From: Enteractinococcus coprophilus
GTDB lineage: Bacteria; Actinomycetota; Actinomycetes; Actinomycetales; Micrococcaceae
NCBI RefSeq assembly: GCF_006716305.1
Contig: NZ_VFOU01000003.1
Span: 620,001 to 684,000 of the forward strand
Length of the DNA: 64,000 nucleotides
Direction: 5' to 3'
Shown: positions 23,752 to 31,135 of the stretch, piece by piece
How the letters are laid out: every line of letters begins with the position of its first letter
Numbering within the stretch: position 1 is the stretch's first letter
Notes under the pieces: model-generated
Database searches by the model: none
Seen by the model: the letters and a program-made list of their open reading frames with translations, nothing else
Told to the model about the DNA's origin: nothing
Position numbers and translations under genes: made by a program

Positions 23752-24234
23752 TTAGCTACTCAACACTTGCGGGGAAAGCTGCTTAATTTGGGCTTGAGCC
23801 CAAGTCTGTTGCCGTTGAGTTTCTGGTTGGCACTGCGTGACGACTGACAACAGGTCAGATTGCTGCAAAGCCTTGGCGCCTTGTGAGAGCATCGTCCACT
23901 GCACGGCGATCCCGCTGGCTGTCATGTGGATTGTGCGTAAGTCCCATAACAACGCAAGTCCGGACGGATTATCGATACCCAACGACTCGCTGTGGGTGTG
24001 TTGTTCAGCGTGTTTGGATGCTCTGGCATCTGACGTCTCAGCTTGCAATGCTTCCCCATAATCTGTCGCAATCTCTGCAAGCTTCGCAATATGATTTCGC
24101 GACCATTGCGCCAGGTCCTTCGCGACGTGGTGAACCTCGGGCTCTGTCACATAGCGTGCAGATAGCTGCAGCAGGTCGTGGTATAAGTTCATTTCGGATC
24201 GATGTATTGACACTAATACCGGGCCGATCTTCAT
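23752..24234 (-). CDS. Helical protein coupled to the molybdopterin oxidoreductase
   Basis: This 160-residue protein has no signal or membrane segment. Its pattern is of four long amphipathic helices with a His-rich middle (HRSEMNLYHDLLQLS, HHVAKDLAQWSRNHIAKLAEI, AEQHTHSESLG), resembling ferritin-like or hemerythrin-like bundles, but no full metal-binding set can be claimed. Its ATG (24234) overlaps the stop of the oxidoreductase as ATGA, so the two are translationally coupled. Similar short proteins follow this oxidoreductase group in other actinobacteria, as I recall. It may be an assembly factor or partner; function is unknown. Confidence 0.65.
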   Translation of the reverse strand: MKIGPVLVSIHRSEMNLYHDLLQLSARYVTEPEVHHVAKDLAQWSRNHIAKLAEIATDYGEALQAETSDARASKHAEQHTHSESLGIDNPSGLALLWDLRTIHMTASGIAVQWTMLSQGAKALQQSDLLSVVTQCQPETQRQQTWAQAQIKQLSPQVLSS

Positions 24235-26603
24235 CTGGATCCCTCCTTCATCCCGGCTGGAACCGAGGTACCAGCAGCGGAGCTTACCCGTCGGATGGCA
24301 GCCGCTGCGGTTTTAAATATTGGTTGTTTCGATGCAGGGTCCCAGTCTGTCAGCGTCAGCTCGTTGGCTGCCCGACCCGGGCCATCTGGTGCGCTCCCGG
24401 TGGTATCCCAATACCCATAATGAAATGGCAAAAATATTACACCGGACCGGATATCGGTGATCCGGGCCTTCGCCTGGACCAGCCCGCGCGGTGTCGTAAT
24501 TTCTGTGAGGTCACCATCTTGAATGCCCGCCGACCTCGCATCGGCTGTGCTGAGTTCTACCCATACTTCCGGGGCCGCATGATTAAGCTCGGGAGCACGG
24601 CCTGTCTTGGTTCGGGTATGGAAATGATAAATCGTGCGCCCGGTGATCAATTGAAAGGGGTATTCCTCGCTCGGTAGTTCGTGGGGTGGAATGTACTCGG
24701 CAGCGCGTAGGATCGCTTTGGCGTCCGGGTTCATCGCCCGATATTCGGTCGCGGTCACGGGAGCGCCGGTCTCAAGATCTCGCCCGTAGGATTCGCAATA
24801 GTCAGGGTCACTAAAAAACGCGCCGTCTCGATATAACCGCTCGGTGCCGTCGGGGTTATCTTCCGTACATGGCCATTGGATCCCCGATCCCCTGCGGAGC
24901 TTGTCATAGGTGATCCCGGTGTAGTCACATGGGCGACCCCGAGAGCATGCTTTCCACGCTTCAAACGCACTTTCCGGGTCAGACCAGGAAATTAACGGTC
25001 CACCGTCTTTGTCTCGTAGGTCAAGCCGTCGAGCATAGTCGATGAAGATCTCGAGATCGGGTTTGGCCTCACCTGGTGGTTCAACGGCCTTGTCTGAGAT
25101 GTGCACCGTGCGATCCACGTTGGTGAAGGTGCCGGTCTTCTCGCCCCAGGTCGCGGCTGGTAACACCACATCTGCTAGCTGTGCGGTTTCGGTTAAGAAA
25201 ATATCCTGGACGATCAACTGAAGATCGTCCTTGGATAACAGCGCACGGATCCGAGCCAGTTCGGGCAACGAGACCGCCGGGTTCGTCCCGCTCACCCACA
25301 ACTGGCGGATCGAACCTTCTTCGACATAACGCATCATCTGCATCAGGTGCGTCGGCGCAGAATAGTGCGGGATGTCGTCCGGGTTGACGTTCCACACGCG
25401 AGCAAGGTCTGCGATATGGTCGGGGTTGTTCCAGTTCCGGAAGCCGGGGAGATCCCCGTCTGCACCGCATTCGCGAGTGTTCTGGGCGGTGGGCTGGCCA
25501 TTCATTTGAAATATGCCACACCCGGGCTTGCCCAGCATCCCGCGGACTAAGTTGAGGTTATTGACCTGCACGGCGGCCGCAGTGGCCTGATGCGACTGAT
25601 AGAACCCCTGCAAGACAGTCGATAACAGCCGTTGTGCGTGACCCAAGATTCGGGCTGCTTCCCGAATCTGTCCCACTGGAACATCACAGATTTCTGCGGC
25701 GCGTTCCGGCGGATACTCCTTCACGACCTTCGCCAGGTCATCAAAACCGATGACGTGTGCATCAATGTAGTCCCGGTCGATCCACCCATTGGTGATAATT
25801 TCGTGCAATAGTGCATTCATCAACGCAACATTCGTGCCCGGGCGCGGTGCCAGGTGCACCGTGGCATGGCGTGCCACCGGAGTGGGTCGAGGATCAACAC
25901 AGATGATCTGTGGCGGGTCATCACCAGCGAGTCGATCCAACATCCTCATCCACAAGACACTTTGCGTTTCGGCAACATTGTGCCCAAACAGCGCGATCAC
26001 ATCGGCATGATCAACATCGGTATATGATCCGGGTTGACCGTCGCTTGCGAAAGATTCCTTCAGAGCAGCTGCAGCGGTGGCCGTGCACAGCCGGGTGTTG
26101 CCATCCAGATGCTTGGTACCGATGCCGCCGTGGGCAATGGTTGCCAGGGTGTAGTACTCCTCAGCGAATAACTGGCCGGTCGTATGAAAGCCCACCGCGC
26201 TGGGACCCTGTTCCTCAAGTAACCGCCGGGTGGTATCGACAATCCGCGTCATGGCGGTTTCCCAGTCAGTTTCCACCAGGGTGCCGTTTTCACGAATCAA
26301 CGGGGTGGTCAACCGGTCTTTGGACTCATTGGCCTGCCACCCATATACATCTTTGGTATCGAGCCTGCCGTGGTTGACTCGGTCCACGGCCCGACCACGC
26401 ACTCCCACTATGCGTTCATCTTTGACGGCAATGTCTAAAGCGTCGCCGTTGGAATGCAGAATTGAAGCCGATTGGACCCATCGATCCACATCGTGTTCTG
26501 TTAATCCTTCAGCCAGGTGAGTATCGACCCGAACGGGCCAAGCTGTCCCAGCGGCATACGGGGTGCGCGCACCCCACACGTCTGTAATACGGTTATTGTT
26601 CAT
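24231..26603 (-). CDS. Molybdopterin oxidoreductase lacking FeS-cluster cysteines
   Basis: The 790-residue protein belongs to the assimilatory nitrate reductase/formate dehydrogenase-like group. The Mo-ligand Cys is C173 in GNTRLCTATA. The bis-MGD regions are present (LFGHNVAETQS, QMNGQPTAQNTRECGADGDLPG, VVLPAATWGEKTGTFTNVDR), as is the C-terminal domain with FHYGYWDTTG. Relatives start their first domain with CVLCSNGC, which holds a [4Fe-4S] cluster. Here the matching residues are S47, H50 and D54 (SASILHSNGDALD), and GRLGPKG is GRLDTKD. Codons TCA, CAT and GAC each differ from Cys codons by at least two bases, so a read error is unlikely. No flavin or 2Fe-2S domain is attached. It is coupled to a small helical protein. 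Substrate unknown. Confidence 0.88.
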   Translation of the reverse strand: MNNNRITDVWGARTPYAAGTAWPVRVDTHLAEGLTEHDVDRWVQSASILHSNGDALDIAVKDERIVGVRGRAVDRVNHGRLDTKDVYGWQANESKDRLTTPLIRENGTLVETDWETAMTRIVDTTRRLLEEQGPSAVGFHTTGQLFAEEYYTLATIAHGGIGTKHLDGNTRLCTATAAAALKESFASDGQPGSYTDVDHADVIALFGHNVAETQSVLWMRMLDRLAGDDPPQIICVDPRPTPVARHATVHLAPRPGTNVALMNALLHEIITNGWIDRDYIDAHVIGFDDLAKVVKEYPPERAAEICDVPVGQIREAARILGHAQRLLSTVLQGFYQSHQATAAAVQVNNLNLVRGMLGKPGCGIFQMNGQPTAQNTRECGADGDLPGFRNWNNPDHIADLARVWNVNPDDIPHYSAPTHLMQMMRYVEEGSIRQLWVSGTNPAVSLPELARIRALLSKDDLQLIVQDIFLTETAQLADVVLPAATWGEKTGTFTNVDRTVHISDKAVEPPGEAKPDLEIFIDYARRLDLRDKDGGPLISWSDPESAFEAWKACSRGRPCDYTGITYDKLRRGSGIQWPCTEDNPDGTERLYRDGAFFSDPDYCESYGRDLETGAPVTATEYRAMNPDAKAILRAAEYIPPHELPSEEYPFQLITGRTIYHFHTRTKTGRAPELNHAAPEVWVELSTADARSAGIQDGDLTEITTPRGLVQAKARITDIRSGVIFLPFHYGYWDTTGSAPDGPGRAANELTLTDWDPASKQPIFKTAAAAIRRVSSAAGTSVPAGMKEGSR

Positions 26604-27536: not shown

Positions 27537-27642
27537 TAAAACCTACCTATCGGGCCCTGGCTAGGGGTGGAAATCGCCATCGTCGCGGTCTAGGCGCAGC
27601 CGGGGTGGCTCCGGTAGCATGCACGCAACAGGAGGATTGTGC

Positions 27643-30159
27643 ATGTCCCGCGATGAACAGAAAGTCTCGATTGATGGCCATCGGTTGACCCTCACGAATC
27701 TCGAGAAAGTCTACTACCCGGAAACCGGTACGACCAAGGGTGAAGTCTTGGACTATTACGCCCGGATCGCGTCGATCTTTATTCGGCATGCGGCCGATCG
27801 GATTGCCACCCGCAAGCGCTGGGTTGACGGCGTCGGTACCCCTGAGCAACCCGGCAAAATGTTCTTCGAAAAGGATCTGCCGGAGCATGCGCCGTCGTGG
27901 CTTGCCACCCACGAGATTGAACACAGCACCGGCACCAAGCACTATCCGCTGGTCCAAGATCAAGCGACGCTAATGTATCTGGCCCAGCTGGGGTCGCTTG
28001 AGATTCATATCCCCCAGTGGCGTGTGCTGTCGAAGGGCGATCCCGGCACGATTACCTCGGATACCCGGTACCCTGACCGGATGGTGTTTGACCTCGACCC
28101 GGGCGAGGGCCGCGGACTGGCCGACTGTATCGAGGTGGCCCACATGGTGCGCGAGCTGCTCAACGGGATGGGCCTGGATGCTTACCCGTTGACTAGTGGG
28201 TCCAAGGGCGTGCACATGTACGCGCCGCTGGATGGTTCGGCGACTAGCCAGCAGGTCTCCGATGTCGCCAAAGAACTCGCGCGCAGCCTGGCGGCCGATC
28301 ATCCCGGGCTGATTGTCTCGAAGATGAAGAAAACGCTACGCAAGAATAAGGTATTCATCGACTGGTCGCAGAACTCGGCATCCAAAACCACGGTCGCACC
28401 GTATTCACTGCGCGGCAGATTCACCCCAACGGTCGCCGCTCCGAGAACCTGGGACGAGCTGGCTGACCCAGCGACTGTTGAACATCTGCGCTTCGAAGAG
28501 GTCCTGGAACGACTCGACGATCTTGGCGACCTGCTGGAACCCTTAGCGCAGAGCGCCGGAGCCGCAGATGCGGCGTCCATAACTGATGCCGATCCGGACG
28601 AAGCACCGCAGGATCGGCTAACCACCTACCGGTCGATGCGTGACCCAAAGAAAACGCCCGAACCGGTACCGGATCGTCACGGCACCACCGGCGACGAACG
28701 CATCTTCGTGATCCAAGAACATCACGCGCGCCGACTGCACTGGGATTTTCGTTTGGAACACGAAGGCGTCTTAGTGTCCTGGGCACTGCCCAAAGGTCCA
28801 CCGACCGATCCAGACCGCAACCATCTCGCCATCCAGACCGAAGATCACCCGATGGAATATGCCAGTTTCGAAGGCACCATCCCCAAGGGCGAATACGGTG
28901 GCGGTGAGGTCACCATCTGGGATTCGGGCACCTATGAACTAAAAAAATGGCGCGACGGCAAAGAAATCACCGCGGTGCTCCACGGGCAACCAGATGGCGG
29001 TCTCGGTGGGACCAAAGAGTTCGCACTGTTTAATACCGGCAGCCACGGCCCGAATGAGGATCCGGCCAGAAACTGGATGATCCACCTGAAGGAAAGCTCT
29101 GCCGACGACGCTGCACCCCGGTCAAAGAAAACCAAAACCCGCAAAACTCGCGACGACGAGGCTGAAGTCTCTGCAGATGGGCCTGTGGAACCGGCAGAGT
29201 ATGCACCGATGCTTGCCACCATCGGTGAGGTCAATGCCGTTGAGCAGGATGAACACGATTGGGCTTTCGAAATGAAATGGGACGGCATCCGTGCCATCGC
29301 CACCGTCCGTGCGCCCACTAACGCTACTCCCGGGTCGGTGGCACTGGTCAGTCGCAACGACATCGATATGACCAACACGTACCCAGAACTCGCGGAACTA
29401 GCAGAGTGTGTGGAGGTCGATTGTGTCGTCGATGGTGAAATCGTCGCCCTCGGCCCATCAGGGCGCCCCGAATTCGGCCGCCTTCAACAGCGGATGGGTC
29501 TGAAAAAGGCTCGGGATGTGGAAGAAGAACGCGCGAAGACCCCGGTGTATTTCATGGTTTTTGATGTATTGGAAGTTGACGGCGAATCACTGCTGCGCGA
29601 TTCTTATGACCAACGACGACAGCGCTTATTTGAGACCGTGTCGGAAGGTGAGCATATTTATGTTCCAGAAGCCTTCGATGGTTCTCTTGAGCACGCGATG
29701 AATTCCAGCAAGCAGCTGAAGCTTGAGGGGGTCATGGCGAAAAAGAAATCCAGCGTCTACCTTCCTGGGAAACGTACGAAGACATGGTTGAAACTCAAAC
29801 ACGCTACGACACGTGAAGTGCTGATCATTGGGTGGCGAACCGGCAATGGCGGTCGGGCAGGTACGCTCGGTTCGCTGTTAGTTGCCGCCCACGGTCCAGA
29901 AGGTTTGGTGTACATGGGTCGGGTCGGCACCGGATTCGACCAGGATCAGCTCGAGATGCTGCGCGAAAAGCTGGATGGTATTGCCCGGAAAACACCCCCG
30001 GCGGACGTCCCCGCTGAGCAGCGTAAAGATGCCAACTGGGTGACCCCCAAGCTCGTGGGCGATGTGGAATTCGGAGGCATCACCGAGGCCGGACGCCTAC
30101 GCCATCCGGTGTGGCGTGGACTTCGCGACGACATCGACCCCGAAGACGTCACGGTATAG
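27643..30159 (+). CDS. ligD: Multifunctional ATP-dependent DNA ligase D
   Basis: AGGAGG at 27630-27635 places the start at ATG 27643 (838 residues), not the ATG at 27619. Domain order is polymerase/primase (about 1-290; FDLDPGEG metal motif), phosphoesterase (about 330-480; HHARRLHWDFRLE and EYGGGEVTIWDSG) and ATP-dependent ligase (about 515-838; motif I EMKWDGIRA with nucleotidyl Lys K545, C-terminal KTWLKLKH). This Pol-PE-Lig order is that of mycobacteria. The protein fills, trims and seals double-strand breaks held by Ku, whose gene is divergent. The linkers between domains are acidic/Lys-rich. Confidence 0.96.
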   Translation: MSRDEQKVSIDGHRLTLTNLEKVYYPETGTTKGEVLDYYARIASIFIRHAADRIATRKRWVDGVGTPEQPGKMFFEKDLPEHAPSWLATHEIEHSTGTKHYPLVQDQATLMYLAQLGSLEIHIPQWRVLSKGDPGTITSDTRYPDRMVFDLDPGEGRGLADCIEVAHMVRELLNGMGLDAYPLTSGSKGVHMYAPLDGSATSQQVSDVAKELARSLAADHPGLIVSKMKKTLRKNKVFIDWSQNSASKTTVAPYSLRGRFTPTVAAPRTWDELADPATVEHLRFEEVLERLDDLGDLLEPLAQSAGAADAASITDADPDEAPQDRLTTYRSMRDPKKTPEPVPDRHGTTGDERIFVIQEHHARRLHWDFRLEHEGVLVSWALPKGPPTDPDRNHLAIQTEDHPMEYASFEGTIPKGEYGGGEVTIWDSGTYELKKWRDGKEITAVLHGQPDGGLGGTKEFALFNTGSHGPNEDPARNWMIHLKESSADDAAPRSKKTKTRKTRDDEAEVSADGPVEPAEYAPMLATIGEVNAVEQDEHDWAFEMKWDGIRAIATVRAPTNATPGSVALVSRNDIDMTNTYPELAELAECVEVDCVVDGEIVALGPSGRPEFGRLQQRMGLKKARDVEEERAKTPVYFMVFDVLEVDGESLLRDSYDQRRQRLFETVSEGEHIYVPEAFDGSLEHAMNSSKQLKLEGVMAKKKSSVYLPGKRTKTWLKLKHATTREVLIIGWRTGNGGRAGTLGSLLVAAHGPEGLVYMGRVGTGFDQDQLEMLREKLDGIARKTPPADVPAEQRKDANWVTPKLVGDVEFGGITEAGRLRHPVWRGLRDDIDPEDVTV

Positions 30160-30235: not shown

Positions 30236-31135
30236 TTAGCTATCCGAAGCCTTGGCTTCTTCGGATCGTGCCGCTTCGATTGCCGGGCGGTCTTGACCGC
30301 CTTTGATCTCTCGTGGCTTGCGCTCTCGTTTGGCGCTGAGTTCGGCGGAGAGGTCGGGGATCTGGTGCCACTGCGGCAGTTGCCCGAACGTTTCTTGCGT
30401 CTGTTCCACTACCTTGCGGGCAAGAGCACGGTTGGCGAAACCACCAATGCCAGCGCCGATGCCAAACGGCACGGCGCGTCCAAAGAAGCGTAAGGCTTCA
30501 CCGCGGAGCAGTGTTTTCATAAACCGGTTCGCCAGCGAGTTGAAGGCGCGTTCGGTGATCCCGGTGATCCCGGAGGCAATCCACGCGGTCGGCCCCAATG
30601 TCCCAAAACGTGTTCCAGGCTGAGAGTCTGCTGCTTGTTTGAGTAGCTCACGGCCTTCTTCGCCCAACAGGATCGTCATGACCAGGGCTTGGGAGTCTTT
30701 TGAATTCTTCGTGTTCATCCCGGCAAGTTCCGCAATCGCCTGTGCGTAGAGACCGGTTAATTCGAGAAAGCCAAGGGTGGCACCGAATGATGCGCCAAGA
30801 CTTGCGGCAGTCCCAATGCCCGGAACGGCTCCTACCCCACCGGCGGCCGCACCGGTGGTGGTCAGCGAGGCGATGTAGCGGCGCGATAAACGCTCAGCGA
30901 GTTCACCGGGGCTGTCGTCGGGGTACTTCTTGCTCATCCGACGCAATTCTGCGATGACCAGCGGACGCTGTACATTCATAGCGCCCAGGACCGCACGTCG
31001 AAACGCCGGCGTTGGCCGACCTTTCGAATCAACGGCTTTGCCCAACATCTTCTGGGCCTCCCGGGCGGTTTTGTCGCGTCGAGCGCCTTTGGCTTTGGTC
31101 TTTTTTGATTTTTGGATTTCGTTATCTTTCGGCAA
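30236..31135 (-). CDS. EcsC-family protein
   Basis: The 299-residue protein has a basic N-terminus and a Gly/Ala-rich hydrophobic centre (about 90-150, TTTGAAAGGVGAVPGIGTAA) typical of EcsC-domain proteins. A second hydrophobic hairpin is near 215-235 (FFGRAVPFGIGAGIGGFANR). EcsC-family members are membrane-associated and of unclear biochemical role. It ends in a Lys/Glu-rich tail. The gene lies two bases after an alpha/beta-hydrolase-like gene and appears co-transcribed with it. Confidence 0.72.
   Translation of the reverse strand: MPKDNEIQKSKKTKAKGARRDKTAREAQKMLGKAVDSKGRPTPAFRRAVLGAMNVQRPLVIAELRRMSKKYPDDSPGELAERLSRRYIASLTTTGAAAGGVGAVPGIGTAASLGASFGATLGFLELTGLYAQAIAELAGMNTKNSKDSQALVMTILLGEEGRELLKQAADSQPGTRFGTLGPTAWIASGITGITERAFNSLANRFMKTLLRGEALRFFGRAVPFGIGAGIGGFANRALARKVVEQTQETFGQLPQWHQIPDLSAELSAKRERKPREIKGGQDRPAIEAARSEEAKASDS

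Follow-up and report, generated by a model that had tools for sequence, protein, structure and literature searches.

Among molybdo-enzymes of the MopB superfamily, AioA and IdrA have three Cys at their cluster site, and TorA and BisC are reductases that work without the N-terminal iron-sulfur cluster. TorA and BisC fall in the same Ser-ligated group as DorA, which is named among several members without the N-terminal cluster (PMC10100899). The gene described here lies in a 64,000-nucleotide stretch of Enteractinococcus coprophilus DNA (contig NZ_VFOU01000003.1, positions 620,001 to 684,000), which we call the window, and encodes an enzyme whose best profile and fold matches are the nitrate reductases NasC, NasA and NapA and the formate dehydrogenase (Fdh) alpha subunit. 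It shares with these a Cys at the molybdenum (Mo) ligand position, but it lacks their four-Cys cluster site and scores far under their curated cut-offs. The bacterial family to which it belongs is a widespread group of molybdenum enzymes that has lost the iron-sulfur cluster through which its relatives pass electrons to the metal; in all members examined the same three residues stand in the rebuilt site. DorA likewise works without the N-terminal cluster (PMC10100899), but its Mo is ligated by Ser and it belongs to a different branch; the cluster loss described here is independent of the DorA-type loss. Enzymes with no, three or four Cys at the ligand positions are referred to below as 0-Cys, 3-Cys and 4-Cys. 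The features of the enzyme gene are as follows:

24231-26603, minus strand: catalytic subunit of the 0-Cys MopB molybdo-enzyme, 790 amino acids (from open reading frame (ORF), Pfam, alignment and tree).
26463-26465, minus strand: S47 (TCA), former cluster ligand position 1, where the family reads S, T or A (alignment, codon check).
26454-26456, minus strand: H50 (CAT), former ligand position 2, present in 119 of 119 0-Cys rows (alignment, codon check).
26442-26444, minus strand: D54 (GAC), former ligand position 3, present in 119 of 119 0-Cys rows (alignment, codon check).
26358-26360, minus strand: D82 (GAT), former ligand position 4, at which the 0-Cys family reads Gly or Asp, the 3-Cys sisters Gly and the two 4-Cys rows Cys.
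26349-26354, minus strand: K84-D85, with the Lys kept in 0-, 3- and 4-Cys rows and D85 in place of the Gly of the 3-Cys group.
26085-26087, minus strand: C173 (TGC), Mo ligand by homology, within the motif DGNTRLCTAT common to most 3-Cys sisters shown.

The reading frame is free of internal stops over its 790 codons, and its product matches PF00384 (E 5.9e-60) and PF01568 (E 5.1e-28) above cut-off, which places it in the MopB/DMSO-reductase superfamily. The Fe4S4 domain PF04879 reaches 14.0 bits, below its cut-off of 22.7; two further 0-Cys proteins score 17.6 and 17.1 bits and four 3-Cys relatives 35-49 bits. The L127 row gave no family match, most likely through wrong coordinates, and does not enter this comparison. 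The four-Cys [4Fe-4S] signature (CISM, Nas/Nap/Fdh type) is absent, with no Cys at any of the four ligand positions. The first-pass annotation of this DNA had reported the loss of the cluster Cys at S47, H50 and D54, and had argued from codons at least two changes away from Cys that base-calling error was unlikely. The alignment bears out the loss and extends it to D82 at the fourth position, which had been omitted together with K84-D85. The codons of all four residues are each two changes off the nearest Cys codon, and the replacement is not a sequencing error because the best 80 of 583 relatives all carry H..D at these places. The alignment of homologues, run as a test of that annotation, placed no Cys set elsewhere, and close homologues have the same replacement. 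Cys173, correctly described as intact, aligns with the Cys of the 4-Cys outgroups and is invariant, together with its neighbours, across 53 aligned sequences. No redox domain is fused within the protein, as had also been stated. Since no twin-arginine translocation (Tat)-type signal is seen in the sequence of its N-terminus, the enzyme should be cytosolic. A gene for FdhD is present elsewhere in the genome.

The search of the genome collection returned 583 related stretches, of which the best 80 were used. An alignment of 149 rows was built from 119 0-Cys, 22 3-Cys and 2 4-Cys rows and 6 rows with incomplete letters, the last being left out of the counts. H50, D54, K84 and D85 are found in all 119 0-Cys rows, while position 47 varies between S, T and A and position 82 between G and D. 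The proposed replacement set is therefore only partly right: H50 and D54 are invariant, S47 is variable, and the conserved set is H50, D54 and D85. The 22 3-Cys rows read CxxCxxxC with Gly82 and KG, and no complete row mixes H/D with Cys.

The order of events was examined with a quick maximum-likelihood tree of 94 rows, comprising 58 0-Cys (window included, about half of those collected), 22 3-Cys and 14 4-Cys rows. Every 0-Cys row falls on one side of a single branch (Shimodaira-Hasegawa-like approximate likelihood ratio test 97), nested within the 3-Cys rows, with the 4-Cys rows outside. Because of this nesting the loss looks two-step, the fourth Cys going first and the other three later. 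The annotation had described the [4Fe-4S] cysteines as replaced, but the nearest Cys-bearing group already has Gly in place of the fourth Cys, and what is seen in the window looks like the second step. When 58 0-Cys rows were compared with 21 3-Cys rows (the diverged row L173 left out), 239 positions were at least 95% conserved in both groups. The two groups are identical at 236 of these and differ at three, namely 50 (H/C), 54 (D/C) and 85 (D/G); at a threshold of 90% the number rises to 295 positions, with one further difference at position 9. Thus the pocket is rewritten, the rest of the conserved core is kept, and the change has a single origin in the tree. The active-site loops are alike in the 0-Cys and 3-Cys groups and unlike those of the 4-Cys outgroups: Thr (Thr174) follows the Mo-ligand Cys where 7/7 outgroups shown have Met, and HTRTKT stands where 5/7 have HTMT.

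The 3-Cys sisters (Deinococcus, Hymenobacter, Halomonas, Curtobacterium, Micrococcaceae), often annotated as nitrate reductase, are about 57-64% identical to the window enzyme and have the same active-site motifs, but they retain CxxCxxxC, with Gly at the fourth position and KG. By analogy with the [3Fe-4S] site of AioA and IdrA, they may hold a [3Fe-4S] cluster. AioA and IdrA differ from the window enzyme in having no protein ligand to Mo, are distant in sequence and are not cluster-free. A search of the literature (open-licence full texts) found no characterised 3-Cys member.

The 0-Cys gene is both widespread and patchy. Enzymes of different actinobacterial families are 70-78% identical (among the best 80 of 583 relatives). 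Within the family of the window, 26 of 149 genomes match at 1e-100, 12 with 0-Cys genes (75-100% identity) and 14 with 3-Cys genes (58-64%), and none of the seven other genomes of the genus in the sample carries the enzyme. Across the phylum sample, matches at 1e-100 occur in 47 of 396 genomes, of which 28 have 0- or 3-Cys-type genes and the rest only more distant enzymes. Other phyla were covered through the best 80 relatives and plasmid records alone. On plasmid records, 3-Cys relatives occur in Deinococcus, Hymenobacter, Halomonas and Curtobacterium, and Gloeothece has a partial relative that lacks the Cys region. Named 0-Cys records are actinobacterial except for one (L028, 'UNVERIFIED_ORG: Bacillus sp.'). 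A plasmid of Staphylococcus saprophyticus (L173, 5983-8409) carries a very diverged 3-Cys relative, 41% identical and with Gly at the fourth position. On a Vreelandella sulfidaeris plasmid (L195, 7000-9664) the copy looks broken: the match falls into four pieces, and the annotation gives several short ORFs.

The annotation had taken the enzyme gene alone and overlooked a second gene directly downstream:

23752-24234, minus strand: partner gene, 160 amino acids, predicted four-helix ferritin-like-fold small subunit, its ATG overlapping the stop of the enzyme gene (ATGA).

The partner adjoins the enzyme gene on the same strand in 105 of 107 family loci, window included; of the other two, L109 runs into the end of its contig and L110 lacks a partner. 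Among the 100 gene pairs called in 108 loci, 91 show the 4-nt overlap. In Halomonas sp. KO116 the partner is fused to the enzyme, and in Rhodococcus rhodochrous BX2 the two lie in one open frame. Within the phylum sample, 25 of 27 partner-bearing genomes also carry the 0- or 3-Cys enzyme, the other two being incomplete (82 and 77%). Conversely, 25 of the 28 genomes with such an enzyme carry the partner, and of the remaining three, two copies stop at a contig end. The partner also stands alongside the enzyme in most 3-Cys loci, and the mycobacterial genome G650 has both a 3-Cys and a 0-Cys copy (loci L258 and L260), both followed by a partner match. The Staphylococcus saprophyticus plasmid locus gave no match to the partner.

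Pfam and NCBIfam gave no match for the partner, and the PDB no significant sequence match (best E 0.3). Its AlphaFold2 model (predicted local distance difference test (pLDDT) 88.8) shows four bundled helices, the second and third joined by a long link, and in this predicted arrangement it resembles ferritin, Dps and mini-bacterioferritin. All 50 top listed Foldseek matches are ferritin, Dps-type or bacterioferritin (best E 6.3e-3). Strongly conserved residues include E14, H48, D98, W113, Q118, C135 and K151. The idea that Cys45 of the partner supplies the fourth cluster ligand missing from the 3-Cys group was discarded: of 20 distinct 3-Cys partners, 4 (two Deinococcus, Hymenobacter, Halomonas) carry Ser at this position, and Cys is present in 13 of 137 0-Cys partners, that of the window included.

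Upstream regions were searched for SigF-type boxes (GKTT-n13-18-GGGWA, within 250 nt), with per-family counts made by a loose pattern within 150 nt. Boxes precede 23 of 80 0-Cys genes, whereas of the 794 other genes predicted in these loci 23 have one (Fisher p 9e-14, which is optimistic because the loci are related). By family, loose boxes were found in Mycobacteriaceae (8/9), Nocardiaceae (3/4), Micrococcaceae (5/10) and Kribbellaceae (2/2), and in 1/21 of the 3-Cys loci. In genome G650 the box is on the 0-Cys copy only and not on the 3-Cys copy. A strong match is present in 63 mycobacterial genomes; of 30 loci read, 28 have a SigF-type box and all 30 read HSNGD. The sequence GTTT-N16-GGGTA lies 43 nt (G610) and 44 nt (G878) upstream in two mycobacterial 0-Cys loci, and the same motif is reported 42 nt upstream of MSMEG_2837/2838 in Mycobacterium smegmatis (PMC4694148). 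In the sigF mutant of that species, MSMEG_2837 ('Nitrate reductase NarB') is down by log2 4.43/3.16 and MSMEG_2838 ('Conserved hypothetical protein') by log2 3.91/3.09 (PMC4694148). A narB deletion left nitrate assimilation and nitrate reduction unaffected, but the narB transcript was undetected in the media used there (PMC7816997); MSMEG_2837 transcripts are reported in other media (PMC4881515). These data point to probable control by the general stress sigma factor SigF in mycobacteria and several relatives, and stress control would extend beyond M. smegmatis. MSMEG_6816 was set aside as the M. smegmatis member (720 amino acids, reportedly 24.4% similar to NarB and GlnR-controlled); GlnR-type boxes are unenriched (3/80 0-Cys genes and 23/794 others), which counts against that candidate.

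We give a probability of roughly 0.62 to the reading that the two genes encode a cytosolic molybdo-enzyme of the Cys-ligated branch which lost its cluster in two steps, had its pocket rebuilt and works without a proximal cluster. The window enzyme would be the catalytic subunit of a two-gene enzyme in the Nap/Nas/Fdh branch of the superfamily. The fourth Cys would have been lost first, as in the 3-Cys sisters. The remaining three would have disappeared in the common ancestor of the 0-Cys enzymes, and the vacated pocket would have been rebuilt with the invariant His50, Asp54 and Asp85 around the kept Lys84. As the conserved Mo-site residues are unchanged, the reaction of the sisters was likely kept, i.e., this is a working enzyme and not a relic; judged by sequence conservation, the 0-Cys enzyme is most likely active. 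It would contain bis-molybdopterin guanine dinucleotide and form a complex with the partner. If the reaction is redox, electrons would need a path to the Mo-pterin that does not involve a proximal cluster. A soluble donor could supply them directly, as with cluster-free enzymes of the DorA type, or they could pass via the ferritin-like-fold subunit encoded alongside. Expression would be driven by SigF in mycobacteria and several relatives, and shedding an oxygen-sensitive cluster would fit such a stress setting.

Several observations weigh against parts of this reading. The tree was made by a quick method, and its outgroup branches are long (program warning for L173 and L138). No partner was found in the 3-Cys loci L110 and L133 (tblastn or profile) or L259 (tblastn). 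The ferritin likeness of the partner is at fold level only, as none of 982 Foldseek matches reaches E 0.001. ExxH is the diiron ligand motif of the ferritin superfamily, and no conserved ExxH was seen across the partner sequences. Residue 28 is His in 130 of 137 0-Cys partners, but Tyr in the window. The window gene has no strict SigF box and one weak loose match, and loose boxes were found in 0/12 Streptomycetaceae and 1/21 Geodermatophilaceae. Lastly, MSMEG_2837-2838 would be the 0-Cys enzyme and its partner by their like anatomy, not by sequence.

No conserved third gene was seen around the two genes; neighbours were clustered as raw ORFs, a procedure that small genes could escape, and with ORFs overlapping the pair set aside the largest cluster spans 13 of 80 loci. 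For 39 of the 80 0-Cys loci, Pfam assignments of 148 neighbours are led by DUF326 (7), followed by major facilitator superfamily (MFS), short-chain dehydrogenase, Na/H exchanger and DUF5709 (5 each); for 17 3-Cys loci, those of 112 neighbours are led by catalase, HPP and MFS (3 each). HPP-family genes adjoin 3-Cys-type relatives in L177 (8631-14117), L193 (6983-11296), L171 (5989-10742) and L172 (6001-9126), and part of these loci also have a formate/nitrite transporter, FdhD, or an annotated NTP (nucleoside triphosphate) transferase and molybdopterin-binding protein. In the window, a Ku gene (PF02735; 26652-27536, minus strand) precedes the enzyme gene in the same orientation at a distance of 48 nt, and divergent from it is LigD (27619-30159, plus strand), with primase-polymerase, phosphoesterase and ligase domains, so that a non-homologous end-joining pair stands beside the Mo operon. 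Beyond it is a 299-amino-acid ORF (30236-31135, minus strand) without a Pfam match at E 1e-5.

An unlikely alternative is a non-redox or self-contained oxo-transfer, in which Mo would pass an oxygen atom (or water) from one substrate to another, no relay would be needed and cluster loss could be costless. The active-site residues are unchanged although the proximal one-electron relay is lost, and with no neighbour cluster beyond 13/80 loci no conserved redox gene is seen besides the partner. Hydroxyl-transfer enzymes of the MopB type, PgtL and RhL, are listed in PMC10100899. However, genes for HPP-family proteins and formate/nitrite transporters next to a number of 3-Cys relatives, and also in Gloeothece, fit oxyanion reduction and hint at an oxyanion substrate, and Lys84, beside the former cluster site, is still invariant.

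Somewhat more doubtful is the proposal of a mononuclear metal (Fe, Zn or Mn) bound by H50, D54 and D85, which would take over from the cluster as a relay or a structural plug. Exactly these three positions are fixed together, and His/Asp/Asp is a usual metal ligand set, but a hydrogen-bond network would give an identical pattern. The AlphaFold2 model of the enzyme has a mean pLDDT of 77.6 from 53 sequences (58 to 78 over five models), and it is silent on any metal site because residues 49-51 are below 50. An extended version of the metal proposal, in which the [4Fe-4S] cluster was exchanged for a mononuclear His50/Asp54/Asp85 site and electrons or oxidant enter via the ferritin-fold subunit in actinobacterial general stress, we regard as improbable.

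It is also hard to credit that the protein is an ordinary nitrate reductase, as the annotations NarB and 'nitrate reductase' would have it, taking electrons without a cluster. Several relatives are so named in plasmid records, and the nearest solved fold to the enzyme model is the periplasmic nitrate reductase NapA of Desulfovibrio desulfuricans (E 3e-55). The NCBIfam equivalog cut-offs are, however, far from reached for NasC (422/1100 bits), NapA (319/904) and NasA (375/1000). Thr follows the Mo Cys where the aligned NapA chains, like the outgroups above, have Met, and the HTRTKT motif likewise departs from HTMT. The narB deletion in M. smegmatis, with its membership in the family taken from anatomy, has no nitrate phenotype, in media where the transcript went undetected. 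Other named functions fare similarly: Fdh alpha has His after the Mo Cys/Sec, where the window enzyme has Thr174, and its cut-off is unmet (476.7/666 bits), as are those of bisC_fam (119.8/1017) and torA (64.9/1465), the window enzyme having Cys173 and not a Ser ligand. It is very improbable that the protein is a pseudo-enzyme or a scaffold with a MopB fold in which Mo is no longer present or no longer used, for although several MopB proteins are reported without the Mo cofactor (PMC10100899), Cys173 and its neighbours are invariant in 53 sequences and common to the 3-Cys sisters, and identity is 70-78% across actinobacterial families.

Cluster-free MopB enzymes such as DorA have been described for the Ser-ligated branch, and here the loss is found in a widespread Cys-ligated family; we found no report, among open-licence full texts, of a cluster loss in this branch accompanied by a conserved replacement and by a partner of ferritin fold. 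A possible intermediate stage, the 3-Cys enzymes, is preserved, and three pocket residues have changed with the remaining doubly conserved core untouched. The family is thus a natural experiment on the purpose of the proximal cluster. If true, a metal site with entry through a ferritin-fold subunit would be a new electron-entry design for molybdo-enzymes. Our results also suggest a different function for some of the genes named nitrate reductase. Mycobacterial narB, for which a deletion strain of M. smegmatis is already published (PMC7816997), is probably one of them. The results point as well to a reaction yet to be discovered, which in mycobacteria would form part of the SigF stress response.

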